Program-made: the position numbers and the translations under genes
The notes under the pieces: generated by a model
Told to the model about the DNA's origin: nothing
What the model saw: only the letters and a program-made list of their open reading frames with translations
Database searches by the model: none
Assembly (NCBI GenBank): GCA_028875055.1
Contig: JAPPGG010000062.1
Span: 1 to 64,000 of the forward strand
Length of the DNA: 64,000 bases
Origin: Chloroflexota bacterium
Lineage (GTDB): Bacteria; Chloroflexota; Dehalococcoidia; Lucifugimonadales; UBA3495
Reading direction: 5' to 3'
Shown: in pieces, positions 20,234 through 59,136 of the stretch
How positions within the stretch are numbered: position 1 is the first letter of the stretch
How the letters are laid out: the number at the start of each line of letters is the position of its first letter

Positions 20234-22432
20234 TTAGTGGTGGAACCCGGTCTCAAACCCTCGTGCACTCGACGATATCAGCAGGTCGGGGCGGTGGCCC
20301 CAACGGCGCAGGAAGCGCCCGAAATTCTTGCGGCTGAGTTCATCACGCTGGCCGTCGTCCAGCTCGGTCCACTGCCGGTGTTCGTGCCGTACCATGGGCA
20401 GGCTGCTATCTGCCAGGACACGGTATCCCCTTTCTTTGAACTGGAAACAGTAGTCAATGTCCAGGTTACGGTAAAACCGGAATCCCTCGTGCATCAGCCC
20501 CACGTTACGTACCGCTTCACGCCGGAAGGCCATGCAATAGGCCTGCATGGCGTCCGCCTCGCCCTGCTCCACCTCTTCGTGGAAGTGCTGCATGTCATCG
20601 GTGGTAAGGCCGTAGGGTCCGAAGATTCCCACAGATTCGTCCGACAGCTGCTGAGCGATGGTCCCCAGCACGTCTCCGGTAATCTCGGTGGAAGCGTCCA
20701 ATATTACTATGTACTTGCCGCGGCTCAGTTTGACCCCGATGTTCTTGCCGGCAGCGTCCCCGATAACGTGGTCGCAGTGGACCACCCGAAAGTCGGGGTC
20801 GCGCTCCCGGTATCCTTCCAGCCAGTCGGCGGTTTCGTCGGTGGAACCGTTGTCTATGGCGATGATCTCAACGGAGTATGCGCCGGCATGGTCCCGAACT
20901 GCCGTTATGCAGCGTTGGATATCGTCAACATAATTGTAGGCATTTACAATGAAGGTGAAATCGTACCGGTCCGGTGAGTCCAGCCCCGATTCTACCTCTC
21001 TCGAGGACGACACCCAGTCCCAGCGCTCCTCCTGCTGTTCCAGGGGTGTCTTGGGACGGATTCGGGTTGCCTGGGGCGTATCCTGCACTACATACCCACT
21101 GGAAGCCAGCTCCCCCCGTAGGGAGTCCGCCGTGGCGTAGTCCACCTGGTCCCGCATGGCGGTCCGCTGGGTGGCGGCCGTAATTATCGCTTCCGGAAGC
21201 TGATAGGCGCTGGGAACCGTATCCAGGTCCAGCCCGAACACCCGGTCAAAGTCCAGCAGCAGAGACAGCTTGGCCTGGGGCGGCAACTCCGACCGCACCA
21301 TTCCCCAGGTTATGGCGAGGCCCGTGGGCAGGTCCAGGTCATTATTGACCGCTTCCCAGAACCTGGCACGCCATTCCTCCGTCTCCGTTGGCAGCTGGGA
21401 AAGCTCCGGAAGACCCTTCCACTCCCATACCCGGTTTCGGAGGTTGGACAGCGCCTTCTCGCTGGCCTTGAGGGAGTTGAAGGTAAAGTTCATCCGGTGG
21501 CGGTACCGTACCGTCATGCAGAGGTAGCGGAAGGAGAGGGGATCAATCCCCCGGGAAACCAGGTCGTCCAGCAGGAAAACGTTGCCCGACGACTTGGCCA
21601 TCTTGGCGCCGTCGGCCAGCAGGTGCTGGGCGTGGATCCAATAGTTGACGTGGGGGTCGCCGAAAGCGCCTTCACTCTGAGCGATTTCGTCCTCGTGGTG
21701 GGGGAAGACGTTGTCCACCCCGCCGGTGTGGATGTCAAAACGTTCGCCCAGGTACTTGTGGGCCATGGCGGAACATTCAATGTGCCAGCCAGGGAACCCT
21801 TCGCCCCACGGGCTGTCCCACTTGACATCCCGACCTGGTTCGGCCGCCTTCCAGAGAGTAAAATCCCTGGGATCCCGTTTCAACGGATCGGCGTCGGCGC
21901 GTACGCCTTCCAGCAGGTTGCCGCCCACGTTCCGGGAAAGGCCGCCGTACTTGGAAAACTGCGGCACATCGAAATAGACGTTTCCGCCGGTCTCGTAGGC
22001 ATATCCGTTGGCCATTAGCTGCTCCACCATGGCCACCATTTCCGGAATGTGGTCGGTGGCCCAGGGAAAAACATGGGCGGGAAGAATGTTTACCCGTTCC
22101 TCGTCCTGGTAGAAGCTTTCAGCGTAGAACTGGGCGATTTCCTGGATGGTCTTGCCTTCCGCCAGGGCCGCCATGATCATCTTGTCGCCGCCGGCCTCGA
22201 CCAGCTCCTGGCGCATATGGCCCACGTCGGTTATGTTCTTGACGTGGTAAACGTCCAGCCCCTGCACCATCAACGCCCGGCGAATCCAGTCGGCCATCAT
22301 ATAGGTGCGGAGATTGCCAATATGGGCGTACCGGTACACGGTGGGCCCACAGGTGTACATCTTGATTTTTCCAGGTTCGATGGGGTGGATTTCATCCAAC
22401 TGTTTTGTCAGTGTGTTGTAAAGGCGCAGCAA
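20234..22432 (-). CDS. cysS: Cysteinyl-tRNA synthetase fused to a family 2 glycosyltransferase
   Basis: The 732-residue chain has two complete parts. Residues 1-460 are a cysteinyl-tRNA synthetase: zinc ligands Cys28 (YTCGPT), Cys220 (HIECSAM) and the HHEDE at 245-249, HIGN at 37-40, KMAKS at 277-281, and the normal C-terminal end (YATADSLRGELASSGYVVQDTPQATR). After a linker, residues 490-700 are a GT-A glycosyltransferase of family 2 (FTFIVNAYNYVDDIQRCI, AIDNGSTDET, GKNIGVKLSRGKYIVILDAS). No stop or ribosome site lies between them. The TTG start follows a GGAGGT site. The first part should charge tRNA-Cys; the second should transfer a sugar to an unknown acceptor. Confidence 0.9.
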   Translation of the reverse strand: MLRLYNTLTKQLDEIHPIEPGKIKMYTCGPTVYRYAHIGNLRTYMMADWIRRALMVQGLDVYHVKNITDVGHMRQELVEAGGDKMIMAALAEGKTIQEIAQFYAESFYQDEERVNILPAHVFPWATDHIPEMVAMVEQLMANGYAYETGGNVYFDVPQFSKYGGLSRNVGGNLLEGVRADADPLKRDPRDFTLWKAAEPGRDVKWDSPWGEGFPGWHIECSAMAHKYLGERFDIHTGGVDNVFPHHEDEIAQSEGAFGDPHVNYWIHAQHLLADGAKMAKSSGNVFLLDDLVSRGIDPLSFRYLCMTVRYRHRMNFTFNSLKASEKALSNLRNRVWEWKGLPELSQLPTETEEWRARFWEAVNNDLDLPTGLAITWGMVRSELPPQAKLSLLLDFDRVFGLDLDTVPSAYQLPEAIITAATQRTAMRDQVDYATADSLRGELASSGYVVQDTPQATRIRPKTPLEQQEERWDWVSSSREVESGLDSPDRYDFTFIVNAYNYVDDIQRCITAVRDHAGAYSVEIIAIDNGSTDETADWLEGYRERDPDFRVVHCDHVIGDAAGKNIGVKLSRGKYIVILDASTEITGDVLGTIAQQLSDESVGIFGPYGLTTDDMQHFHEEVEQGEADAMQAYCMAFRREAVRNVGLMHEGFRFYRNLDIDYCFQFKERGYRVLADSSLPMVRHEHRQWTELDDGQRDELSRKNFGRFLRRWGHRPDLLISSSARGFETGFHH

Positions 22433-22441
22433 AGCTCCAAT

Positions 22442-22447
22442 ACCTCC
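22442..22447 (-). promoter_or_regulatory. Ribosome binding site fixing the cysS TTG start
   Basis: GGAGGT on the minus strand lies nine bases before the TTG at 22432. No ATG is available in frame near the family's normal N-terminus. Confidence 0.65.
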
Positions 22448-22608
22448 TTCGCACGCCCCGGGCAAACAAGAGCAAAACCGTGAACTGCGGGGCCTGAGGC
22501 GATTTTCAGGGCAGAAAATTGCAAATCCTTGCCGCTTCTACCCGGAAATCGAATATTGCCCCAAGTTTAGCATTATTGATTCAGCTTTGCATCCGACTTG
22601 GAGCGCAG

Positions 22609-31527: not shown

Positions 31528-32679
31528 ATGAGCACAGTTGCTGTGGAGGTGGTGTACCGGGGCATTTTCCAGAAAACCCTGGCTCGGAACATCGTCCGCT
31601 CCATAGTTTTCGCGGCCAGAAAAGAAGGCAAGTACGGAACCGCCTTCGGCCGGTACGGTGACTCTCCCGAACGTAACGGCATCCCGGCAAAACAGTTTGC
31701 CATCGTTGCCGACGATCCCGAGGAACTGGAAGAAAACCTGGCAGTGTACGAAGCCCAGGAAGTGGACGTTACCATCAACGTGGACGACACCATGTGCAAG
31801 GGAATCGAGTCCTGGGCATGGTACGGGCTCCAGCCCATCAACGCCCTGACCAAGACCGGTGGCACCCTCATCGTAACCTCTCGCCAGGATGCCGATGCCC
31901 TCATCGAGGACATCCATCAGAAGGACCAGCCCTACAACCTGTCCATTCTGACCTCCATACCCAGCTTCTCCGGCCTCTGGGTTTACAAGGACGACCACAC
32001 CGATGTCCGCATTCTGGGCGCCCTGGCCAAGGTCTGTCCCCAGCTGGTCAGCCTGGAGTCCATGGTTGAAGCCATCCAGGACCAGGGATGGGACGACCTG
32101 AAGGTCCGCTCGGCCGAACGTTCCTACGACCGGACCACCAGTCGCCCGGTGGAGCCTGGTGAAGGCAACCAGGAAGAGCCCTTCAGCTTTGACCTGCCCG
32201 GCTGGACCACCATGGAAGAGGGAATTATCATCCGCGGCATCGAGCAGGGCGGCGGCTTCCGCGGGGGCGAGGAAGGCTATCAGCCCGTACGCAACTCCGT
32301 ATTCAAGAAGTACAGCACCCGCTCCATGCGCCCCATCGTCAACTTTGACACCTGCATCAAGTGCACCCTCTGCTGGCTCCAGTGCCCCGACACCTGCTTC
32401 GACGTCACTCCGGATGGTTTGTACGACGCCAACCTGGAGTCCTGCTGCGGTTGCGGTGTCTGCGAAGCCGTCTGTCCCGTTGCCGACTGCGTGACCATGA
32501 TTAACGAGGCCGAGTTCAACGACAACGACAGCCAGTACGAAATGTGGCAGAAGGACAAGGACAGCTACACCCAGTGGATGACCTCCTTGATCGAAAAGCA
32601 AAAGCAGGTTGATCGGACCCACGGCTTCCACCACGTCGGTGGCTATGCCGAGGAGATCGCCGAGGTAGCGGAGGACTAA
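31528..32679 (+). CDS. 2-Oxoacid:ferredoxin oxidoreductase, fused gamma-delta subunit (oxalate oxidoreductase-like)
   Basis: The 383-residue protein joins a gamma domain (about residues 1-190, VEVVYRGIFQKTLARNIVRSIVFAARKEGKYGTAFGRYGDSPER) to a ferredoxin-like delta domain with two [4Fe-4S] motifs, CIKCTLCWLQC and CCGCGVCEAVC (about residues 275-330). Electrons from the ThDP centre would pass through these clusters to ferredoxin. A gamma-delta fusion followed by alpha and beta genes is the arrangement of the Moorella oxalate oxidoreductase. The stop overlaps the alpha-subunit start by one base. AGGAGGA precedes the ATG. Confidence 0.85.
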   Translation: MSTVAVEVVYRGIFQKTLARNIVRSIVFAARKEGKYGTAFGRYGDSPERNGIPAKQFAIVADDPEELEENLAVYEAQEVDVTINVDDTMCKGIESWAWYGLQPINALTKTGGTLIVTSRQDADALIEDIHQKDQPYNLSILTSIPSFSGLWVYKDDHTDVRILGALAKVCPQLVSLESMVEAIQDQGWDDLKVRSAERSYDRTTSRPVEPGEGNQEEPFSFDLPGWTTMEEGIIIRGIEQGGGFRGGEEGYQPVRNSVFKKYSTRSMRPIVNFDTCIKCTLCWLQCPDTCFDVTPDGLYDANLESCCGCGVCEAVCPVADCVTMINEAEFNDNDSQYEMWQKDKDSYTQWMTSLIEKQKQVDRTHGFHHVGGYAEEIAEVAED

Positions 32680-33905
32680 TGACAACCGTCGAAGAACAAC
32701 TGTTTATGACCGAAAAAGAGGAGTTGATCAGCGGCAGCGAGGCCGTAGCCATTGCCTGCGCTTTGGCCGACGTTGACGTGATCACCGCCTATCCCATTCG
32801 GCCTTACGACACAGTTATGCAGTATGTGTCCCAGCTAAAGGCCAATGGCGCCTTCGACTGCGACTTCATCGTGGCCGAAAGCGAGCACTCCCAGTTCGAA
32901 ATTGTTAAGCACGCCTCCTCCGTTGGCGCTCGCACCTTCTGCGGCTCCAGCGGCGTGGGCTGGTTCTACGCCTTCGAGGCCATTGCCGTCACCGCCGGTC
33001 TTCGCCTTCCCGTGGTCGCCATGGTCGGCAACCGCGCCCTGGACGACCCCGGCGCCTTCGGCGTAGAGCACAACGACGCCCTGGCCGTCCGCGACCTGGG
33101 CTGGATGCTCTACTGGGTGGCCACCGCCCAGGAAGCCCTGGACATGGCGCTCATGGCCTGGCGCATCGCCGAGGACCCCCGGGCCTTCCTTCCCATGGCG
33201 CTCAGCTGCGACGGCTCCTTCCTGACCCACTCCCAGGCCATCGTGAATGTGCCTACCCAGGAGCAAGTCAACAAGTTCCTCCCCGGCTACCAGCGGGGCC
33301 AGATGCAGCTTCACCCGGACAACCCCATCACTGTTGCTCCCCAGGTAAACGAAGACTGGCTGATGGAAATCCGGCGCCAGTCCAACGAAGCCATGAGCAG
33401 GACTCCTGGCGTCATCAAGGAAGTGTACGAAGAGTTCAAGCAGGTATTCGGCCGGGGCGACCCCAGCCCCTTCCTGGAAGAGTACATGACCGACGACGAC
33501 CCGGATATCATCCTGATGGGTATGGGCACTCTGGCGTTGCCGGTACGGGTGGCCATCCGCCGCATGCGCGAGCAGGGCAAGAAGGTCGGATTCGTCCGCC
33601 TGAAGTTCTTCCGCCCCTTTGCCACCGAAGAAGTACAGGAAGCCCTGAGCGGCGCCAAGGCCGTGGCCGTCATTGATCGCGACTACTCATTCGGTTCCCC
33701 CTCCTCCGGCGGGGTGCTGTTTAACGAAGTCCGAGCCGCCCTGTATCCCCTGGAGAAGCGCCCCCATGTGGTAAACTTCATTGCCGGACTGGGTGGCCGC
33801 GAAGTCCGCGTTCGAGACGTGGAAGAAATGGTGGAAACTACCCAAAAGGCCATCGATACTGGTAAAGTAGAACAGGAATGCAACTGGATCGGAGTGAGGG
33901 AGTAA
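32679..33905 (+). CDS. 2-Oxoacid:ferredoxin oxidoreductase alpha subunit (oxalate oxidoreductase-like)
   Basis: The 408-residue subunit contains the pyrimidine-binding domain (DVDVITAYPIRPYDTVMQYV, FIVAESEHSQFEIVKHASSVGARTFCGSSGVG) and domain II (ILMGMGTLALPVRVAIRRMREQGKKVGFVRLKFFRPF). In pyruvate oxidoreductases the loop reads YPITP; here it is YPIRP, with Arg41 in place of Thr. As I recall, Moorella oxalate oxidoreductase has an Arg at this position to hold the second carboxylate. That makes oxalate a good candidate substrate, split to two CO2 with reduction of ferredoxin. Other dicarboxylic 2-oxoacids cannot be ruled out. Confidence 0.82.
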   Translation: MTTVEEQLFMTEKEELISGSEAVAIACALADVDVITAYPIRPYDTVMQYVSQLKANGAFDCDFIVAESEHSQFEIVKHASSVGARTFCGSSGVGWFYAFEAIAVTAGLRLPVVAMVGNRALDDPGAFGVEHNDALAVRDLGWMLYWVATAQEALDMALMAWRIAEDPRAFLPMALSCDGSFLTHSQAIVNVPTQEQVNKFLPGYQRGQMQLHPDNPITVAPQVNEDWLMEIRRQSNEAMSRTPGVIKEVYEEFKQVFGRGDPSPFLEEYMTDDDPDIILMGMGTLALPVRVAIRRMREQGKKVGFVRLKFFRPFATEEVQEALSGAKAVAVIDRDYSFGSPSSGGVLFNEVRAALYPLEKRPHVVNFIAGLGGREVRVRDVEEMVETTQKAIDTGKVEQECNWIGVRE

Positions 33906-33910
33906 GAATT

Positions 33911-34903
33911 ATGACGCTAGTACGGGATCTCCCCCAGGTTCGGGGTGTAAAGAACATACCCATACAGGAAGGTTTCACTTCCGGCCACCGCACCTGCCAG
34001 GGTTGCGAGTCGGCGTTGACCATGCGGCTGATGATCAAGGCCGCCGGCCCTCGCACCATCGTTGTGGGCAGCACCGGCTGCATGTATGTGGCCAATACCA
34101 CCTACTACAGCACCCCCTGGGTGGTGCCCTGGATGCACACTCAGCTGGGTTCCTCCGGCGCCGCCGCCACCGGTACCGCCGCGGGACTGGCTTCCATGAT
34201 GCGCAAGGGCAAGATGAAGGACGAACCCATCAACGTCATCGCCTTCTGCGGCGATGGTGGCGGTGTGGACATGGGTCTGGCCGGTATTTCCGCGGCCCTG
34301 CAGCACGAAGAGTACAACCTGCTCATCCTTTGCTACGATAACGAGTCCTACGCCAATACCGACATCCAGGTGTCGGGCAGTTCCCCCTGGGGCGCCAACT
34401 CCACCTTCAGCCCTCCGGGCAAGGTTCACCGGATCATGAACCGCCGCTGGAAGAAGAACACGGCTCCCATGCTGGCTGCCGGTCACCCCAGCTGCCGGTA
34501 CGTGGCCACCGCCTGCGCCTCCTACGGCCTGGACTTCACCAACAAGATCCGCCGGGCCCTGACCATCGGCGGTCCCACCTTCATCCACGTCATTGACCCG
34601 TGCCCCAAGGGCTGGGACTACGACCCCAAGTATTCCCACGAGCTGGGCATGCTGGCCGTAGAGACGGGCCTGTGGGTCCAGTACGAGATCGCTGACGGGG
34701 AACTGACCCTCAGCGGCCCGTCCCGGGCCATTCAGAGTGGCGTGCGGGCCCGCAAGCCGGTGCAGGATTACCTGCAGCGCCAGGGCCGCTTTGCTCACCT
34801 CACCGAGGAAGACCTCCAGTTCTTCCAGCAGCGCGTCGACGAAAGCTGGGACGATTGGTGGCTCCCTGGCGTAGTCCCCTTCAAGCGCCCGGAAGAAGAG
34901 TAG
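33911..34903 (+). CDS. 2-Oxoacid:ferredoxin oxidoreductase beta subunit (oxalate oxidoreductase-like)
   Basis: The 330-residue subunit binds ThDP and one [4Fe-4S] cluster. It has the cluster cysteines C29 and C32 (CQGC) and C57 (STGCMY), with a later Cys expected as the fourth ligand. The ThDP/Mg motif GDGGGVD (114-120) is followed by DN (143-144). The ATG at 33911 is preceded by GAGGGAG. It follows the alpha gene by five bases and ends before a strong terminator, so gamma-delta, alpha and beta form one operon. Confidence 0.85.
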   Translation: MTLVRDLPQVRGVKNIPIQEGFTSGHRTCQGCESALTMRLMIKAAGPRTIVVGSTGCMYVANTTYYSTPWVVPWMHTQLGSSGAAATGTAAGLASMMRKGKMKDEPINVIAFCGDGGGVDMGLAGISAALQHEEYNLLILCYDNESYANTDIQVSGSSPWGANSTFSPPGKVHRIMNRRWKKNTAPMLAAGHPSCRYVATACASYGLDFTNKIRRALTIGGPTFIHVIDPCPKGWDYDPKYSHELGMLAVETGLWVQYEIADGELTLSGPSRAIQSGVRARKPVQDYLQRQGRFAHLTEEDLQFFQQRVDESWDDWWLPGVVPFKRPEEE

Positions 34904-46784: not shown

Positions 46785-48041
46785 CTAGCTGTTCAGCATC
46801 CTGGCCAGCATTTCCTCGTCTTCAATTACCTCAAAGTGCCAGTCCAGCGGCTTGGACACGGCGCCGCCACGAGCGGCGGAAAGCGCTTCCTCCGCGGCAT
46901 AAACAATGTTGAAATGGGTAACGTCGCGCCCGCCCAGACCGATTATCCGTCCCAGCACCACCGGCGCGTTGGGCTGACCGAACAATGCGCTGCGCAGGTC
47001 CTGGTACACCGCGGCGACGGTATTCCGGTCCAGCACAACAACGCCCTTCACGTTGCCCAGCGCCTCAACCAGGTCTTCGCTGGGGAAGGGGCGGTAGGTC
47101 CGTATCTTGACCAGTCCAACCTTCTTGCCCTGCTCGCGCAGCAGATGCACGGCCAGCCTGGATGTCGATGAAAGGGAACCCATGGCCACGATGGCTACCT
47201 CGGCGTCCTCCATCTGGTATGTCTCAATCAAGCCACCATAGCCCCGCCCAGTCAGGTTCACATAATCCTGGTGGGCCTGCTTCAGCCTGGCCTTTGAGGT
47301 GACGTTCAGCGCCTCGTCCAGCTGGAACCGGCGCTCCATGTATTCCCGTTCCACATCAATATAGCCGTACCCGCTCATGCGCTGGCCGCCGTAGTAGGCC
47401 GCGAAATCCAGGTTCTTGATGAAGTCCACCTCCGGAGGCAGATCAAACGGAGGCAGGAAGCTGTCCACCGCCTCCTGGCTGGGCGACTGCACCGGATAGC
47501 TGTTGTGGGAGACTTCCCATCCGTCATAGGTAACGAAGGCCGGCAGCAGGACGTCAGGATCCTCACTGACCTTGTAGGCCTGGATGACCGTGTCCATCAC
47601 GTCCTGCGCGTTCTCGCAGTGGTAGTGCATCCAGTGAATGTCCCGGTACATGATGGTGTCCTGGTCGTCGGACCGCACAATGGCCGGCGGTTCCAGCGCC
47701 CGGTGCGCCACCACCACCACCATGGGAATGCGGGCATAGGAAGCAAAAATTAGCTGCTGGGCCGCAATCAGCAGGCCCTCGGAGTTGGTGGCAAAGGAAC
47801 AGCGCGCCCCCGACTGGGTTGCCGTTATCTGGGCGTTCATCACGCTGCGCTCGTGTTCCAGTTCGATGACCTCGGCCGGCAGTTCACCCCGCTGGATCAT
47901 TCGGGAAAGCTCTTCACCGACCTCGTCCGACGGACCGATGGGAAAGTAGCAAAGCACCTGAACTCGGGCCAGTTTCAGCGCATGGGCCGCCGCCTTGTTG
48001 CCGGTTAGTGCTTCACGCCTGGTGGGAGTGGGGGAGGTCAT
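46785..48041 (-). CDS. 2-Oxoacid:ferredoxin oxidoreductase alpha subunit, second operon
   Basis: The 418-residue subunit has the same domain plan as the one at 32679 (ARVQVLCYFPIGPSDEVGEELSRM, VAIVAMGSLSSTSRLAVHLLREQGKKVGLVKIRTYRPFPSEDLVEAL, ending GRIIGLGGRDVTHFN). Its substrate loop reads FPIGP, with Gly36 where the first operon has Arg and pyruvate enzymes have Thr. That implies a different substrate, one that could be bulkier. The exact acid is unknown. GGAG precedes the ATG. It starts 28 bases after the gamma-delta gene. Confidence 0.83.
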   Translation of the reverse strand: MTSPTPTRREALTGNKAAAHALKLARVQVLCYFPIGPSDEVGEELSRMIQRGELPAEVIELEHERSVMNAQITATQSGARCSFATNSEGLLIAAQQLIFASYARIPMVVVVAHRALEPPAIVRSDDQDTIMYRDIHWMHYHCENAQDVMDTVIQAYKVSEDPDVLLPAFVTYDGWEVSHNSYPVQSPSQEAVDSFLPPFDLPPEVDFIKNLDFAAYYGGQRMSGYGYIDVEREYMERRFQLDEALNVTSKARLKQAHQDYVNLTGRGYGGLIETYQMEDAEVAIVAMGSLSSTSRLAVHLLREQGKKVGLVKIRTYRPFPSEDLVEALGNVKGVVVLDRNTVAAVYQDLRSALFGQPNAPVVLGRIIGLGGRDVTHFNIVYAAEEALSAARGGAVSKPLDWHFEVIEDEEMLARMLNS

Positions 48042-48069
48042 CTACGGTCTCCTGCCTTGCCTTAAAGTG

Positions 48070-49092
48070 CTAAATGTCCAGGTGAATTCGCTGGTGGGTG
48101 TCGATCTCCGGCCGGTGTGGGGCCGCAGTAATGTCGGTGTATTCCGGGTTTTCCTTCTTGACCTGGTCTTCGTCAACCATGGTCAAAGCGCTGCCCACGC
48201 AGACCTCCGCGCAAATGCCGCAACCCCGACAGAAGTCCACGTCTATGCGGTACCCCTGGTGCGGCAGGTCCTGGCGGATGATGAAACCGGTCCCGTCGGG
48301 ACACATAACCTCGCTGATGCACACGCCGGGGCAGATGCACTTGTTGTCCTCGCATACGGGCACCTTGTCCCGCCAGACGAAGGGGCTGCCTCCGCTGAAC
48401 CCCGGAAGCTTGTCGTAGCGGTCAAACTGGTAGTACTGGGGCAGACTCTCCACCGCCGCGTGTTCCAGCCTCGCCGGCGTCCGGTCAACCTGGAACTTGA
48501 CACCGCCGATAGCCTGCACCGACTCGTAGGCTTCCGTCGTCGCCTCGGCATTGCGTTCGCCAACGGCGCCAGGGAAGGCCTCCCTGATGATAGACAGCAG
48601 TTCACCCATGTCAATGGCCTGGGTGATTCGCGCATAGGCGCCCAGCAGGGTCAGCCCCACCGGCGGCGGATTGCGGCGCAGCAGCCTGCCGGCAATGCCC
48701 GTAGCGTCCACTGTTGCCACCACTCCCTCCAGGTCAAAGGGCAGGTCAATTTCCTGGGGTTGCTTGGGCGAGTTCACCAGCAGGGTGCCGGTCTTCATCC
48801 GCCCGATTGCGTCGGCAATCAGTTCGTGGGTGTTGTTCCTGGCAGTGAGCAGCAGTTCTTCCTGGAAAACGATCACTTCCGATGGATGGTAGTTGGCGCA
48901 ACTGGCCATCACCTCCGAGTCGGAAATCTTGACATAATTTATGACCGGCCCACTGCGGGCGCGGGTGCCCGGATAGACGTTTACCGAAACAAACCAACCC
49001 TGGTGGGCGTACAGCTTGGCCAGGGCTTCGCCGGCCTGCACCGACCCCTGACCGGACATGCAAAGGAGATTCAATTCTGTGGTTTGAGGCAT
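48070..49092 (-). CDS. 2-Oxoacid:ferredoxin oxidoreductase, fused gamma-delta subunit, second operon
   Basis: The 340-residue protein joins a gamma domain (TELNLLCMSGQGSVQAGEALAKLYAHQGWFVSVNVYPGTRARSGPVINYVKIS) to a ferredoxin-like domain. The second cluster motif is regular (CRGCGICAEVC). The first region reads C-x4-C-x-C-x3-C-x5-C, an unusual spacing. The gamma domain here is closer to standard pyruvate-type gamma subunits than the one at 31528. It is the first gene of the operon; AGGAG precedes the ATG. Confidence 0.83.
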   Translation of the reverse strand: MPQTTELNLLCMSGQGSVQAGEALAKLYAHQGWFVSVNVYPGTRARSGPVINYVKISDSEVMASCANYHPSEVIVFQEELLLTARNNTHELIADAIGRMKTGTLLVNSPKQPQEIDLPFDLEGVVATVDATGIAGRLLRRNPPPVGLTLLGAYARITQAIDMGELLSIIREAFPGAVGERNAEATTEAYESVQAIGGVKFQVDRTPARLEHAAVESLPQYYQFDRYDKLPGFSGGSPFVWRDKVPVCEDNKCICPGVCISEVMCPDGTGFIIRQDLPHQGYRIDVDFCRGCGICAEVCVGSALTMVDEDQVKKENPEYTDITAAPHRPEIDTHQRIHLDI

Positions 49093-53681: not shown

Positions 53682-55292
53682 TCAGCAGGCTGCTCGCGGG
53701 GAGGGAGGGAAGTTGAATGGTGGGCTGGACTGGACGAAATCAAGAACCGAGGCCGATTCCGACGTAACCCCGTCCTGCGGCATGGGGATAGTATACGTCA
53801 GAACCGCCTCGTCCTCCACGATCTCGATGCCCTGCACGAAGTTGCGGATCAGGGCCTTCCGCTCCGGGAAAGTGCCGTCCTGGAAGAGTGCGCGGAAGTC
53901 CGCCACGTACCCCTTGATCTCCTTCGACGTGGGCAGCTCCGCCCGCCGCTGCTCCAACTGGAACTCGGCTTCCTCCCGCGCCGCCACAAGCTGGTCCTGG
54001 CGGCTCTTCAGGGACAGGATGCGGGGCGACAGGACCTCGATGGGCAACTGCTGGGTCTCCAGGGCCTGGTAGAGGTTCTCCAACCGGGTCTCCACGTCGG
54101 ACAGCTCGCTGTTGATGGCGGTCAGCCTGCCGTTGACCTCGCCGGCCAAAGCATCAATCTCCTCGGCCACCAGGGTCACCAGCTCGGTGATGGTCTCCTC
54201 GGTGAGAATCCGCTCCCTGACCTTCTCGATCACCAGGTCCTCGACTTTCGTGGCGTTCAGGTAGCGGGCGGTGCAGGCTCCGGCTCCCTCCCGGAACAGG
54301 CTGGAGCAGACGTAGTATGCGAACTGTCCGCTCTTGGCTCCCTGGGCGGAGTAGGACCTGCCGCATACCCCGCAACGGAGCAGTCCGCTCAGCAGGTACT
54401 GGCTCCCGACCCGTCCGGGCTGCTGCACCGTGGGCGCTCTCTCATGCAACCCCTGATGCACCGCGTCAAACAGCTCCCTGGACACCAACGCGGGCCAGGC
54501 GTTCTCCACCCGCACCGGCTCCCCCGCCTTCTCGTCCTTGCTCTTGACGCCCCAGACGGCGGTGCCGGTATAGGCTTCGTTGGTCAGGAGGTAGTGGACC
54601 ACGTTCTTCTGCCAGCGCCTGCCCCGGTTGGTGATGCCTCGTCCGTTCAGCTCCTTGCAGATTTCCGCCAGCCCGTTGCCCCGGCGTGAACTCTCGAACA
54701 TCTCCCTGACGATGGGCGCGGCCACCGGGTCCACCTCCAGGGTGGGACGCTCCTTCACCCCGTCGCTGACCTTGATGCGGGTGTAGCCGAAGGGTGCCTT
54801 GGAGCCGAGGAAGAAACCACGGGAAGCGGCTTCCCGCATTCCCCGCACAACCTCTTGCCCAAGATTCTCGCTGTAATATTCGTCCACGCTCTCGATGATG
54901 CCCTCCAGCAGCCGGCCGGTGGCGTTGTCCTCGGCCTGCTCGGTGATGGACACCACGCGGATGCCCTTGCGCCGCAACTGGGCCTTGAAGGCCACGGCGT
55001 GCTCCCGCTTGCGGGTGAATCTCGAAAATTTCCAGACCAGAATCACCTGGAAGGGGGCCTTCGGCCTGCTGCCCTCGTCGATCATCTCCCGGAACTGGGG
55101 CCGGTCGGCGATGCGCCCGCTCTCGGCCTCGTCCACGTACTCGCGGGCGACGGAATAGCCGTTGGCCTTCGCGTAGTCGCGCAATGCCCGAAGCTGGGCG
55201 GCCACGGAGAGGTCCACGTCCTGGCGGTCGCTGGAGACCCGGGCGTAGAGCGCCGCCGGGGTGAGGGGCTGGAACTGTCTGTCCTTTTTCAT
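53682..55292 (-). CDS. Large serine recombinase (site-specific integrase)
   Basis: The 536-residue protein has a resolvase-type catalytic domain with the nucleophile Ser in LYARVSSDRQ (about residue 20), then DEAESGRIADRPQF and WKFSRFTRKREHAVAFKAQL. A recombinase domain follows (GYTRIKVSDGVKERPTLEVDPVAAPIVREMFE), then a zinc ribbon (CGVCGRSY...CSS...C) and a C-terminal coiled coil (about residues 375-440). Such enzymes integrate or excise phages and mobile islands. GGAGG lies five bases before the ATG. Its place at one end of a run of accessory genes fits an integrated element. Confidence 0.92.
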   Translation of the reverse strand: MKKDRQFQPLTPAALYARVSSDRQDVDLSVAAQLRALRDYAKANGYSVAREYVDEAESGRIADRPQFREMIDEGSRPKAPFQVILVWKFSRFTRKREHAVAFKAQLRRKGIRVVSITEQAEDNATGRLLEGIIESVDEYYSENLGQEVVRGMREAASRGFFLGSKAPFGYTRIKVSDGVKERPTLEVDPVAAPIVREMFESSRRGNGLAEICKELNGRGITNRGRRWQKNVVHYLLTNEAYTGTAVWGVKSKDEKAGEPVRVENAWPALVSRELFDAVHQGLHERAPTVQQPGRVGSQYLLSGLLRCGVCGRSYSAQGAKSGQFAYYVCSSLFREGAGACTARYLNATKVEDLVIEKVRERILTEETITELVTLVAEEIDALAGEVNGRLTAINSELSDVETRLENLYQALETQQLPIEVLSPRILSLKSRQDQLVAAREEAEFQLEQRRAELPTSKEIKGYVADFRALFQDGTFPERKALIRNFVQGIEIVEDEAVLTYTIPMPQDGVTSESASVLDFVQSSPPFNFPPSPRAAC

Positions 55293-57015: not shown

Positions 57016-58722
57016 TCACGTCTCCCCCTCTACCGGACGCATCCGGTGCCGCAGCGAGTCCCACCGGTAGGCCCTCAGTCCCGACAGCGCCAGCCGCCTG
57101 GGTCGGGACGCCCACAAGGGACGCCAGGACCGGCCCAGCAGCCCGTTCCTCGTCAGGGTGCCGGCGCAGGATACCAGGATGGGCAGCGTCATCAGGTTCA
57201 TCCTGGAAGCCGTCCTCGCGTAGGTCTCCTCCACCTCCTCGTTGGCCACCACGAACAGGGTCACGGGAAAGGGGGTCATGTCCGTCTCGGGAGCGTTGGA
57301 GTGGTAGTAGTCGGTGTAGGGCCGCAGCCGGGCCAGCACTCCCTTGGGATGGCGGGCGCGCAGTTCGTGCTCCAGGTAGAAGGGGATGTGCAGTCCGTCG
57401 GCGATGAGGTGTCCCACTGCGTCCGGGGCGATGGCCGACTCCCCCCAGTTGAAGGCCCGGTCGGTCTTGGCCGTGGGGACGGACCAGGTCAGCTGGGAGT
57501 CCGCCGTCGCCCGCGCCTCCGCCGCCAGCTCCGACAGGAACCAGGTCACCCCGTCGGCGTGCCTGGTCTGCCTGGCCCAGGTCTCGATGCGGTGGCCCAG
57601 ATGCCGCCGCCTCCCGTGTTTGTCGGTGGTAAGCTCCGCGCTCCATATTCCCCGGGTGGTCGGCAGCTGCGCCCGGTCCCGGTGGGTGACGTAGCGGATG
57701 CCCTCCTCCGTCAGGGTGTAGCGGATGTCGCCCTGCTTGCCGTGGCCTTCGACAAGACCCCAGGTGCGCACCAGATTGCGCAGCATCTGGCTGACCCGGC
57801 CCTCGGTAACCCCCAGCCAGCGTTCCAGATGCTCCCGGGGTATCATCGGATGGTCGGTGATCAGGTCCAGCGTCCGCTTCTCCGATGAAGTCAGGCCGAA
57901 GGTGGGCGCGGCCTGCACCATCCGCTGCGCGTCGGGCAGCGAGGCCCGCTTGCGCTCCGGCGGCTCGGTGAAGGGTCCCCGGTTCGGGCTGCCGCGGGTG
58001 CGGATGAACTCCAATGAATAGGGCAGGCTGCCGAAGAGCCACGAGGCATAGCGCCAGGCGTTGCTGTTCCAGTCCTCCAGGGAATCCCTGGACTCCACGG
58101 CCACGTAGCAGTCGTCGATGTTCAGCCGCTCGCAGAACCTGGTCGCAAACCGCTGTTCCCAGACGCTGGGGGCCAGCACCAGGACCGTGCCGGGGCGGCG
58201 CCGGTACCCGTACTCCGCGATGGCCCGCAGCCGGTCGTAGAGGGAGCGGCGCCGTAGCGCCGGACCCTGCCGCACCACCCCGAAGGTGAGCCCGTCGTGG
58301 AGAGTGATCACCGCGTCGAACCGGCCCCGGCGGTGAAAGTCCACCTGGGAACAGCGCCCGTCCGTTCCGGGAGAAAGGGACGCCGCCAGGCGGTATACCG
58401 TGGCCACCGCGTCCATGCGGCGGACCAGCAGGGCGAGCCACTCCCGGGACACCGGGTAGGCACGCACGTAGTCCGAGGGCGTATCGAAGCCCAGTACTCC
58501 GGCGGCTTCGCCGACGCCCTTCCTCGTCAGGTAGTATCGCCTGCTCGTCGGCAGGTGAGCGGTGCCGTGGCCGACGCGCTCCACGATGCCGTCGGCCATC
58601 ATGCCGGCCAGGCCCCGGTGGATGGCGACGTGGGCCTCCCCGGTGATCATCGCCAGTTCCGCCGTGTCGGTGAAGGGCATGAGGCTGAGATGGTGCAGCA
58701 ATTCCCGGTCGGAGACGCTCAT
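57016..58722 (-). CDS. Replication-relaxation-like protein with two winged helices
   Basis: The 568-residue protein starts MSVSDRELLHHLSLMPFTDTAELAMITGEAH, a winged helix of the replication-relaxation type. A nuclease-like or relaxation domain follows (VDFHRRGRFDAVITLHDGLTFGVVRQGPALRRRSLYDRLRAIAEY), and then a second winged helix (SEKRTLDLITDHPMIPREHLERWLGVTEGRVSQMLRNLV). Family members are found on plasmids and conjugative elements. The start is uncertain: an ATG at 58758 or a longer frame to 58962 is possible. A second long frame in another phase covers the same DNA and was rejected. Confidence 0.65.
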   Translation of the reverse strand: MSVSDRELLHHLSLMPFTDTAELAMITGEAHVAIHRGLAGMMADGIVERVGHGTAHLPTSRRYYLTRKGVGEAAGVLGFDTPSDYVRAYPVSREWLALLVRRMDAVATVYRLAASLSPGTDGRCSQVDFHRRGRFDAVITLHDGLTFGVVRQGPALRRRSLYDRLRAIAEYGYRRRPGTVLVLAPSVWEQRFATRFCERLNIDDCYVAVESRDSLEDWNSNAWRYASWLFGSLPYSLEFIRTRGSPNRGPFTEPPERKRASLPDAQRMVQAAPTFGLTSSEKRTLDLITDHPMIPREHLERWLGVTEGRVSQMLRNLVRTWGLVEGHGKQGDIRYTLTEEGIRYVTHRDRAQLPTTRGIWSAELTTDKHGRRRHLGHRIETWARQTRHADGVTWFLSELAAEARATADSQLTWSVPTAKTDRAFNWGESAIAPDAVGHLIADGLHIPFYLEHELRARHPKGVLARLRPYTDYYHSNAPETDMTPFPVTLFVVANEEVEETYARTASRMNLMTLPILVSCAGTLTRNGLLGRSWRPLWASRPRRLALSGLRAYRWDSLRHRMRPVEGET

Positions 58723-58860
58723 GCGTCGAGCGTAGCAGACCGGGAGCGTGGCGGTCATCAGGCAAGTGTCATTACCAGCCTGGGGAGTGGCGATTCCGTT
58801 GTCCGAGAGGCGCCCGGCAATGTAGAATGACAGCCACGGAAGCAGGCCAGCACGGGGGTG

Positions 58861-59136
58861 ATGACAGTGAACGCGCCAACTCTCCCAACAGCGGAGATCG
58901 CCCGCCTGGGCAAGGAGATTTACGAGCGGGACATTCGCTGGCAGGTTGAAGCCGCTCATCACGGGCAGATGGTCGCCATTGACGTGGCCAGTGGCGACTA
59001 CGCCGTCGCCGGAGCGGCCCTTGCCGCAGCAGACGCCCTGCGGGAGCGGCGTCCTGCCCCTGACGTTTGGGTGGTCCGGGTGGGGTATCCGACGCTGCGC
59101 ACCTTCGGGGGCACCGCCTCTCGGAGGACCGGGTGA
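58861..59136 (+). CDS. Small conserved protein paired with an aspartic protease
   Basis: The 91-residue protein reads LPTAEIARLGKEIYERDIRWQVEAAHHGQMVAIDVASGDYAVAGAALAAADALRERRPAPDVWVVRVGYPTLRTFGG. I recognise it as a conserved small partner often found directly before a clan AA aspartic protease, but its function is unknown. Its stop overlaps the protease GTG start (GTGA), so translation is coupled. A GTG three bases earlier is an alternative start. Confidence 0.72.
   Translation: MTVNAPTLPTAEIARLGKEIYERDIRWQVEAAHHGQMVAIDVASGDYAVAGAALAAADALRERRPAPDVWVVRVGYPTLRTFGGTASRRTG

Follow-up and report, generated by a model that had tools for sequence, protein, structure and literature searches.

The fused gene and its two halves

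The window analysed here, the whole stretch of 64,000 nucleotides from a Chloroflexota bacterium (contig JAPPGG010000062.1), holds a gene on its minus strand that joins a cysteinyl-tRNA synthetase (CysRS) to a family 2 glycosyltransferase (GT2) in one frame of 732 codons followed by TAA (20234..22432). A first-pass annotation had claimed such an uninterrupted frame, and the frame exists; the strand was absent from that annotation, and we find that the plus strand of the interval holds stops while the reverse complement is open. Translation starts at a TTG (22432) lying 9 nt downstream of a directly read Shine-Dalgarno sequence, AAGGAGGT (22442..22449, minus strand), and we favour this start because, when relatives were aligned, a close one (in genome G002) had a stop in frame just a few codons before the same TTG. 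Profile matches divide the chain into CysRS at residues 1–460 (TIGR00435, 412 bits against a cut-off of 340; Pfam PF01406, 329 bits) and GT2 at residues ~490–700 (PF00535, 74 bits against a cut-off of 23.3), the best curated CysRS profile being the PRK14536 model (448 bits). In an AF2 model both domains are predicted with confidence (pLDDT 88.9, pTM 0.85).

The CysRS half opens with the class I catalytic domain (residues 15–324, 21461..22390; all coordinates in this and the following paragraph are on the minus strand), in which the Zn ligands C28, C220, H245 and E249, together with H37 and K280, are present in 47/47 fused rows. Alignment places the HIGN signature at residues 37–40 (22313..22324) and the KMAKS signature at residues 277–281 (21590..21604), with K277, M278 and K280 invariant in 66 aligned rows. 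A helical DALR-like region of the diverged Borrelia type follows (residues 318–400, 21233..21481); Borrelia CysRS 3sp1 is among the best solved-structure matches, and a Pfam profile search gave no DALR_2 match in the fusion protein. The half closes with a CysRS-type anticodon-binding hairpin (CysS_C; residues 414–460, 21053..21193), identified by alignment and fold and carrying R423, R427, Y432, D436, R439 and D451. In E. coli CysRS the contacts to G34 are made at positions 423, 427, 432 (W432) and 436 (PMC12684709); the fused proteins have R423 in 42/47, R427 in 44/47, an aromatic residue at 432 in 45/47 and D436 in 46/47, and R439 and D451 are likewise kept. Residues 1–461 of the model overlay the tRNA-bound E. 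coli enzyme (1u0b) with a Z of 48.6 (443 residues aligned, rmsd 2.7). By profile cut-off, by Zn and signature motifs, and by an anticodon-binding domain with G34 contacts, this half belongs to CysRS (TIGR00435), and it appears to be catalytically active—as the first-pass annotation, which noted zinc ligands, HIGN and KMAKS, had supposed. The motifs HxGN and KMxKS are kept.

A linker with a conserved Ser-rich V-x-S motif (residues 461–487, 20972..21052, placed by alignment) leads into the GT-A / GT2 domain (residues 488–720, 20273..20971), whose membership is borne out by both family profile (PF00535) and fold. Modelled alone with the hairpin, the GT half reaches a pLDDT of 92 and matches GalNAc-T, WrtF, PcManGT, SpsA and K4CP at Z 19–22. 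D658, the last residue of FRFYRNLD (residues 651–658, 20459..20482), is invariant in 77/77 modules and falls, by alignment only, at the position of the GT2 catalytic base (ED motif). The DXD motif is degenerate (D579-A-S581, 20690..20698, from the alignment): its first Asp, D579, is kept in 75/77 modules, and its second is D in 0/77 (S, G, A, N and others occur at position 581), so that nearly all members read D-x-S/G. DNGSTD is lost in several lineages. An H683-E-H685 motif was also placed by alignment (20378..20386), and D658, D579, R638, Y654, R655, S700, N703 and H683/H685 show little or no variation among the fused proteins of about 26 families. The description of this half as a complete GT-A glycosyltransferase therefore stands for the fold and the base-like Asp and fails for the second Asp of DXD, which is missing in every member examined. 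Since position 581 is never D, we read the half as GT-like with a modified metal/nucleotide site, reflecting either a change of substrate or lost activity.

Distribution, descent and genomic setting

A search for the same fusion elsewhere, as the first-pass annotation had proposed, returned many homologues. The fusion aligned end to end in 44/59 related genomes, and another collection yielded 36 species-level loci with the full-length form; identity in these two sets goes down to 42–47%. It was again full-length in ~45/400 genomes spread over the phylum Chloroflexota. By a hand count from the 59-relative and 400-genome surveys, about 26 Chloroflexota families hold the unbroken two-domain frame, including the cultured Dictyobacter kobayashii (L033). 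Chance is excluded because so many genomes align with the complete chain, both domains included, from one end to the other, and an assembly artefact or chimera is ruled out by the same fusion in many independent assemblies, that of the cultured organism among them. The proposed counter-evidence—homologues that always encode two genes—fails in view of so widespread a fusion, yet some families do encode two genes (e.g., f70, in which CysRS and GT are separate and usually convergent neighbours), and these are instructive.

The CysRS halves of 47 fused proteins and of one frameshifted copy fall together in a single clade (SH-aLRT 100), for which a single origin of the fusion would be the simplest reading of the tree. 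Their sister group comprises CysRSs without a GT from families f58, f68 and f70; in f58 this sister-type CysRS is the sole CysRS apart from an MshC-like gene, and the lineage is therefore one of working CysRSs. Mean identity is higher among the fused halves (55.7%) than among the ordinary CysRSs that accompany them in their genomes (47.5%), and the fused halves are the more similar in 95/105 pairs; the lower mean of the ordinary gene may owe something to its transfer. Between close species, dN/dS was 0.03–0.12 for the CysRS half and 0.04–0.08 for the GT half where computable, synonymous sites being near saturation in more distant pairs, and these values indicate purifying selection on both halves. 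A scan of 84,980 species with peptides of the fusion protein matched Chloroflexota only. A phage or plasmid origin is disfavoured: the phage matches listed cover the CysRS half, except for one weak match to the GT part, and plasmid matches are ordinary GT2 proteins at about 22–29% identity.

Some copies depart from the common form. Genome G344 has a second, decayed fusion (L266:1803-3434, minus strand), in which an N-terminal fragment remains, most of the CysRS catalytic core is missing, the Cys28 position is changed and the GT half is retained at about 27% identity. In G430 the CysRS and GT parts lie in two overlapping frames (L110:4632-6836 and L110:5936-6802), a frameshift that may be genuine or an assembly error. 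Long His-rich tails (e.g., HSHEHKHWPDHSHTHTHTHT) end the fused proteins of f67, f84 and f59 (L121, L124, L109, L154, L125, L129) and could possibly serve as a metal store or sensor.

The host genome (3.75 Mb, 98% complete) also answered the suggested search for a second cysS: an ordinary gene adjoins ispF/ispD on contig C14 and is 36% identical to the fusion CysRS, which rules out the fusion as a replacement of the normal enzyme. Among 47 Chloroflexota genomes searched with TIGR00435, most of them with the fusion, a separate CysRS accompanies the fusion in nearly all (as fragments in a few draft genomes), and many fusion genomes outside Dehalococcoidia have an MshC-like third copy. The 48 host tRNAs include one tRNA-Cys(GCA), with U73 and A37, and neither a dedicated second tRNA-Cys nor a recoded tRNA was found; nor did any tRNA-Cys gene lie near the fusion in the window and the 59 loci. 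A tRNA-Sec(UCA) gene occurs on contig C8 (L191:125-213), so the host may use selenocysteine. MiaA is present.

Neighbours of the fusion are conserved only within SAR202-type relatives (CoA-transferases, a MeaB-like GTPase, SPFH and NfeD proteins). In the neighbourhood comparison no fusion neighbour was conserved across families, the stand-alone GT genes described below had no neighbour common to most families, and neither tRNA-modification genes nor, across families, envelope or lipid genes appeared as conserved neighbours of either form. The suggestion that the fusion ties translation to envelope glycans thus finds no backing in the neighbourhood, nor in the protein, where no stretch qualifies as a transmembrane segment (19-residue hydropathy means peak at 1.2). 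Elsewhere in the window, read by eye, a large serine-recombinase-like ORF (53682-55292, minus strand) and a replication-relaxation-like ORF (57016-58962, minus strand) suggest a nearby integrated mobile element, and two gene sets resemble 2-oxoacid:ferredoxin oxidoreductases (31528-34903, plus strand; 46785-49092, minus strand).

Stand-alone hairpin–glycosyltransferase proteins

A profile of the hairpin and GT module also finds the two together in a stand-alone form, mostly unlinked to CysRS, in f58, f67, f68 and f112, and many Ktedonobacteraceae (f67) carry both the fused and the stand-alone form. These proteins of ~300–345 aa share the V-x-S linker motif and begin with the CysRS-type anticodon-binding hairpin without any aminoacylation domain. 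On five of them Pfam CysS_C scored up to 29.9 bits, one passing the cut-off and the other four falling slightly short. All of the 26 stand-alone proteins examined keep R423, R427, an aromatic residue at 432, D436 and D451, with R or K at 439, and the remainder of the hairpin is mostly variable. For a glycosyltransferase incapable of charging tRNA, G34-reading residues would bring no obvious benefit unless it reads tRNA, which is what we suppose; the chief weak point of this argument is that these residues might instead be conserved for folding. The earlier suggestion that the second domain could act on tRNA gains support from this retention, seen in aligned sequences, of a CysRS anticodon-binding domain by free glycosyltransferases.

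The GT tree puts the stand-alone proteins from f58, f68 and f70 in one group (support 88) and the f67 ones in another (100). Because they fall into two groups, the hairpin–GT module probably came apart more than once, the hairpin being retained each time. The f67 proteins (e.g., L246:4528-5472, plus strand) lack Y654, H685 and W688, yet their hairpin residues are present, and they are candidate pseudo-glycosyltransferases that would still bind tRNA. Some of them (e.g., L248, L250, L251) have acidic C-terminal tails.

Candidate roles and related systems

The fusion occurs across much of Chloroflexota, and the tRNA-reading domain is found even on the free GT; together these point to an undescribed step involving tRNA-Cys. 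We tentatively propose, in a reading that we hold just short of probable, that a glycosyltransferase or a protein derived from one acts on tRNA-Cys close to its anticodon, whether docked there by a dedicated CysRS paralogue or acting on its own. The paralogous CysRS would hold tRNA-Cys by its anticodon-binding domain and offer the anticodon arm to the attached GT-A domain. The GT domain would itself bind tRNA-Cys through the hairpin and be placed near the anticodon loop; in the fused form the CysRS body would add a grip on the acceptor end and may charge the tRNA. The GT-A domain would then transfer a sugar to tRNA-Cys or recognise a modified nucleotide there—the catalysis, the sugar and the target nucleotide being guesses—and A37 is one candidate target, MiaA being present and i6A37 possible. 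The narrower proposal, that a tRNA-Cys-specific Chloroflexota glycosyltransferase borrowed the CysRS anticodon-binding domain, is in most cases still fused to a dedicated CysRS paralogue and makes a sugar-modified nucleotide in tRNA-Cys, is possible and somewhat doubtful. We know of no sugar-modified nucleotide in tRNA-Cys and, in any bacterium, of no such modification or enzyme class. The prediction is concrete enough to be tested in the cultured Dictyobacter kobayashii and by expression in E. coli.

The active-site losses that qualify the proposal would also fit a GT domain that is catalytically dead and serves a specialised CysRS, one for stress or particular conditions, by binding tRNA or protein or by regulation. 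DXD is degenerate throughout, DNGSTD is not conserved, the f67 stand-alone proteins have lost further active-site residues and the second fusion of G344 has decayed; however, the near-invariant D658, D579, R638, Y654, R655, S700, N703 and H683/H685 resemble a working active site, and stand-alone GT modules survive without the CysRS catalytic domain, so we judge a dead domain unlikely. Survival of the modules as separate genes also counts against a redundant CysRS carrying a neutral, hitch-hiking GT domain. Such redundancy would fit the coexisting ordinary CysRS and the lack of partner genes conserved across families, but the single ancient origin, the long retention and a dN/dS well below 1 in both halves speak against it; with purifying selection on the GT half it is largely refuted and, to us, scarcely credible.

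The second CysRS, whose charging residues are complete and which coexists with the ordinary one, could supply Cys-tRNA for a dedicated non-ribosomal use, in the manner of LysX or ErdS, with the transferase joining cysteine or a sugar into a glycoconjugate, and synthetase–transferase fusions of this logic exist (ErdS, PMC9437257). Yet the partner domain is GT-A rather than a transferase that uses aminoacyl-tRNA, the anticodon domain of stand-alone GTs without a synthetase domain is not needed by such a model, and no envelope or lipid neighbours are conserved across families; we consider it quite improbable. More improbable by far is that the pair makes a low-molecular-weight thiol of glycoside type that contains cysteine, as could be imagined from MshC, a paralogue of CysRS whose reaction attaches Cys to a glycoside (PMC9437257). 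The first-pass annotation had already set the CysRS half apart from MshC, and the data agree: TIGR03447 gives 221 bits against a cut-off of 485, the fusion has a full C-terminal anticodon domain with G34 contacts that MshC lacks, and in several fusion genomes an MshC-like gene exists apart from the fusion and falls among the other MshC rows in the tree.

Returning to tRNA-Cys modification as the preferred reading, the fusion can be set beside several known systems. With the Borrelia-type branch of bacterial CysS (TIGR00435) it shares the catalytic core, Zn site, signatures, anticodon-binding hairpin and overall fold, but it differs in its diverged DALR region, in the GT-A domain at its C-terminus and in being a second copy beside an ordinary CysS. 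LysX, like ErdS, is a synthetase fused to a transferase; their transferases use aminoacyl-tRNA, whereas the GT-A fold found here uses nucleotide sugars. In a review of synthetase paralogues, MshC and the UGA-decoding CysRS* are the only ones given for CysRS (PMC9437257). MshC, the mycothiol cysteine ligase, is likewise a CysRS paralogue but has neither an anticodon domain nor a glycosyltransferase, and MshC-like genes occur separately alongside the fusion in several families. CysRS* of Desulfobacterales, which charges SelC*, is also a second, non-canonical CysRS, but it is without the anticodon-binding domain (PMC9437257) that the fusion keeps and conserves. We found no description of a CysRS–glycosyltransferase fusion in the open-access literature, in agreement with the first-pass view of the domain pair as undescribed.

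For the GT half, the nearest solved folds are the GT2 fucosyltransferase WrtF, 6p61 and the GT27 polypeptide GalNAc-transferases (Z 20–22), from which it differs in sequence (about 11–26% identity), in having D-x-S/G for DXD, and in its extra CysS_C domain; GalNAc-T carries DxH at the DXD position. In function the closest parallel would be the queuosine glycosyltransferases QTGAL and QTMAN, animal enzymes acting on queuosine in tRNA-Tyr/Asp (PMC12518689). The likeness, to which the retained anticodon domain points, would be one of function: a sugar added in the anticodon loop of a tRNA, here one with a GCA anticodon, which is not a queuosine tRNA. If true, the Chloroflexota fusion would represent a bacterial counterpart of the animal queuosine sugar modification, aimed at tRNA-Cys and constituting a new modification system.
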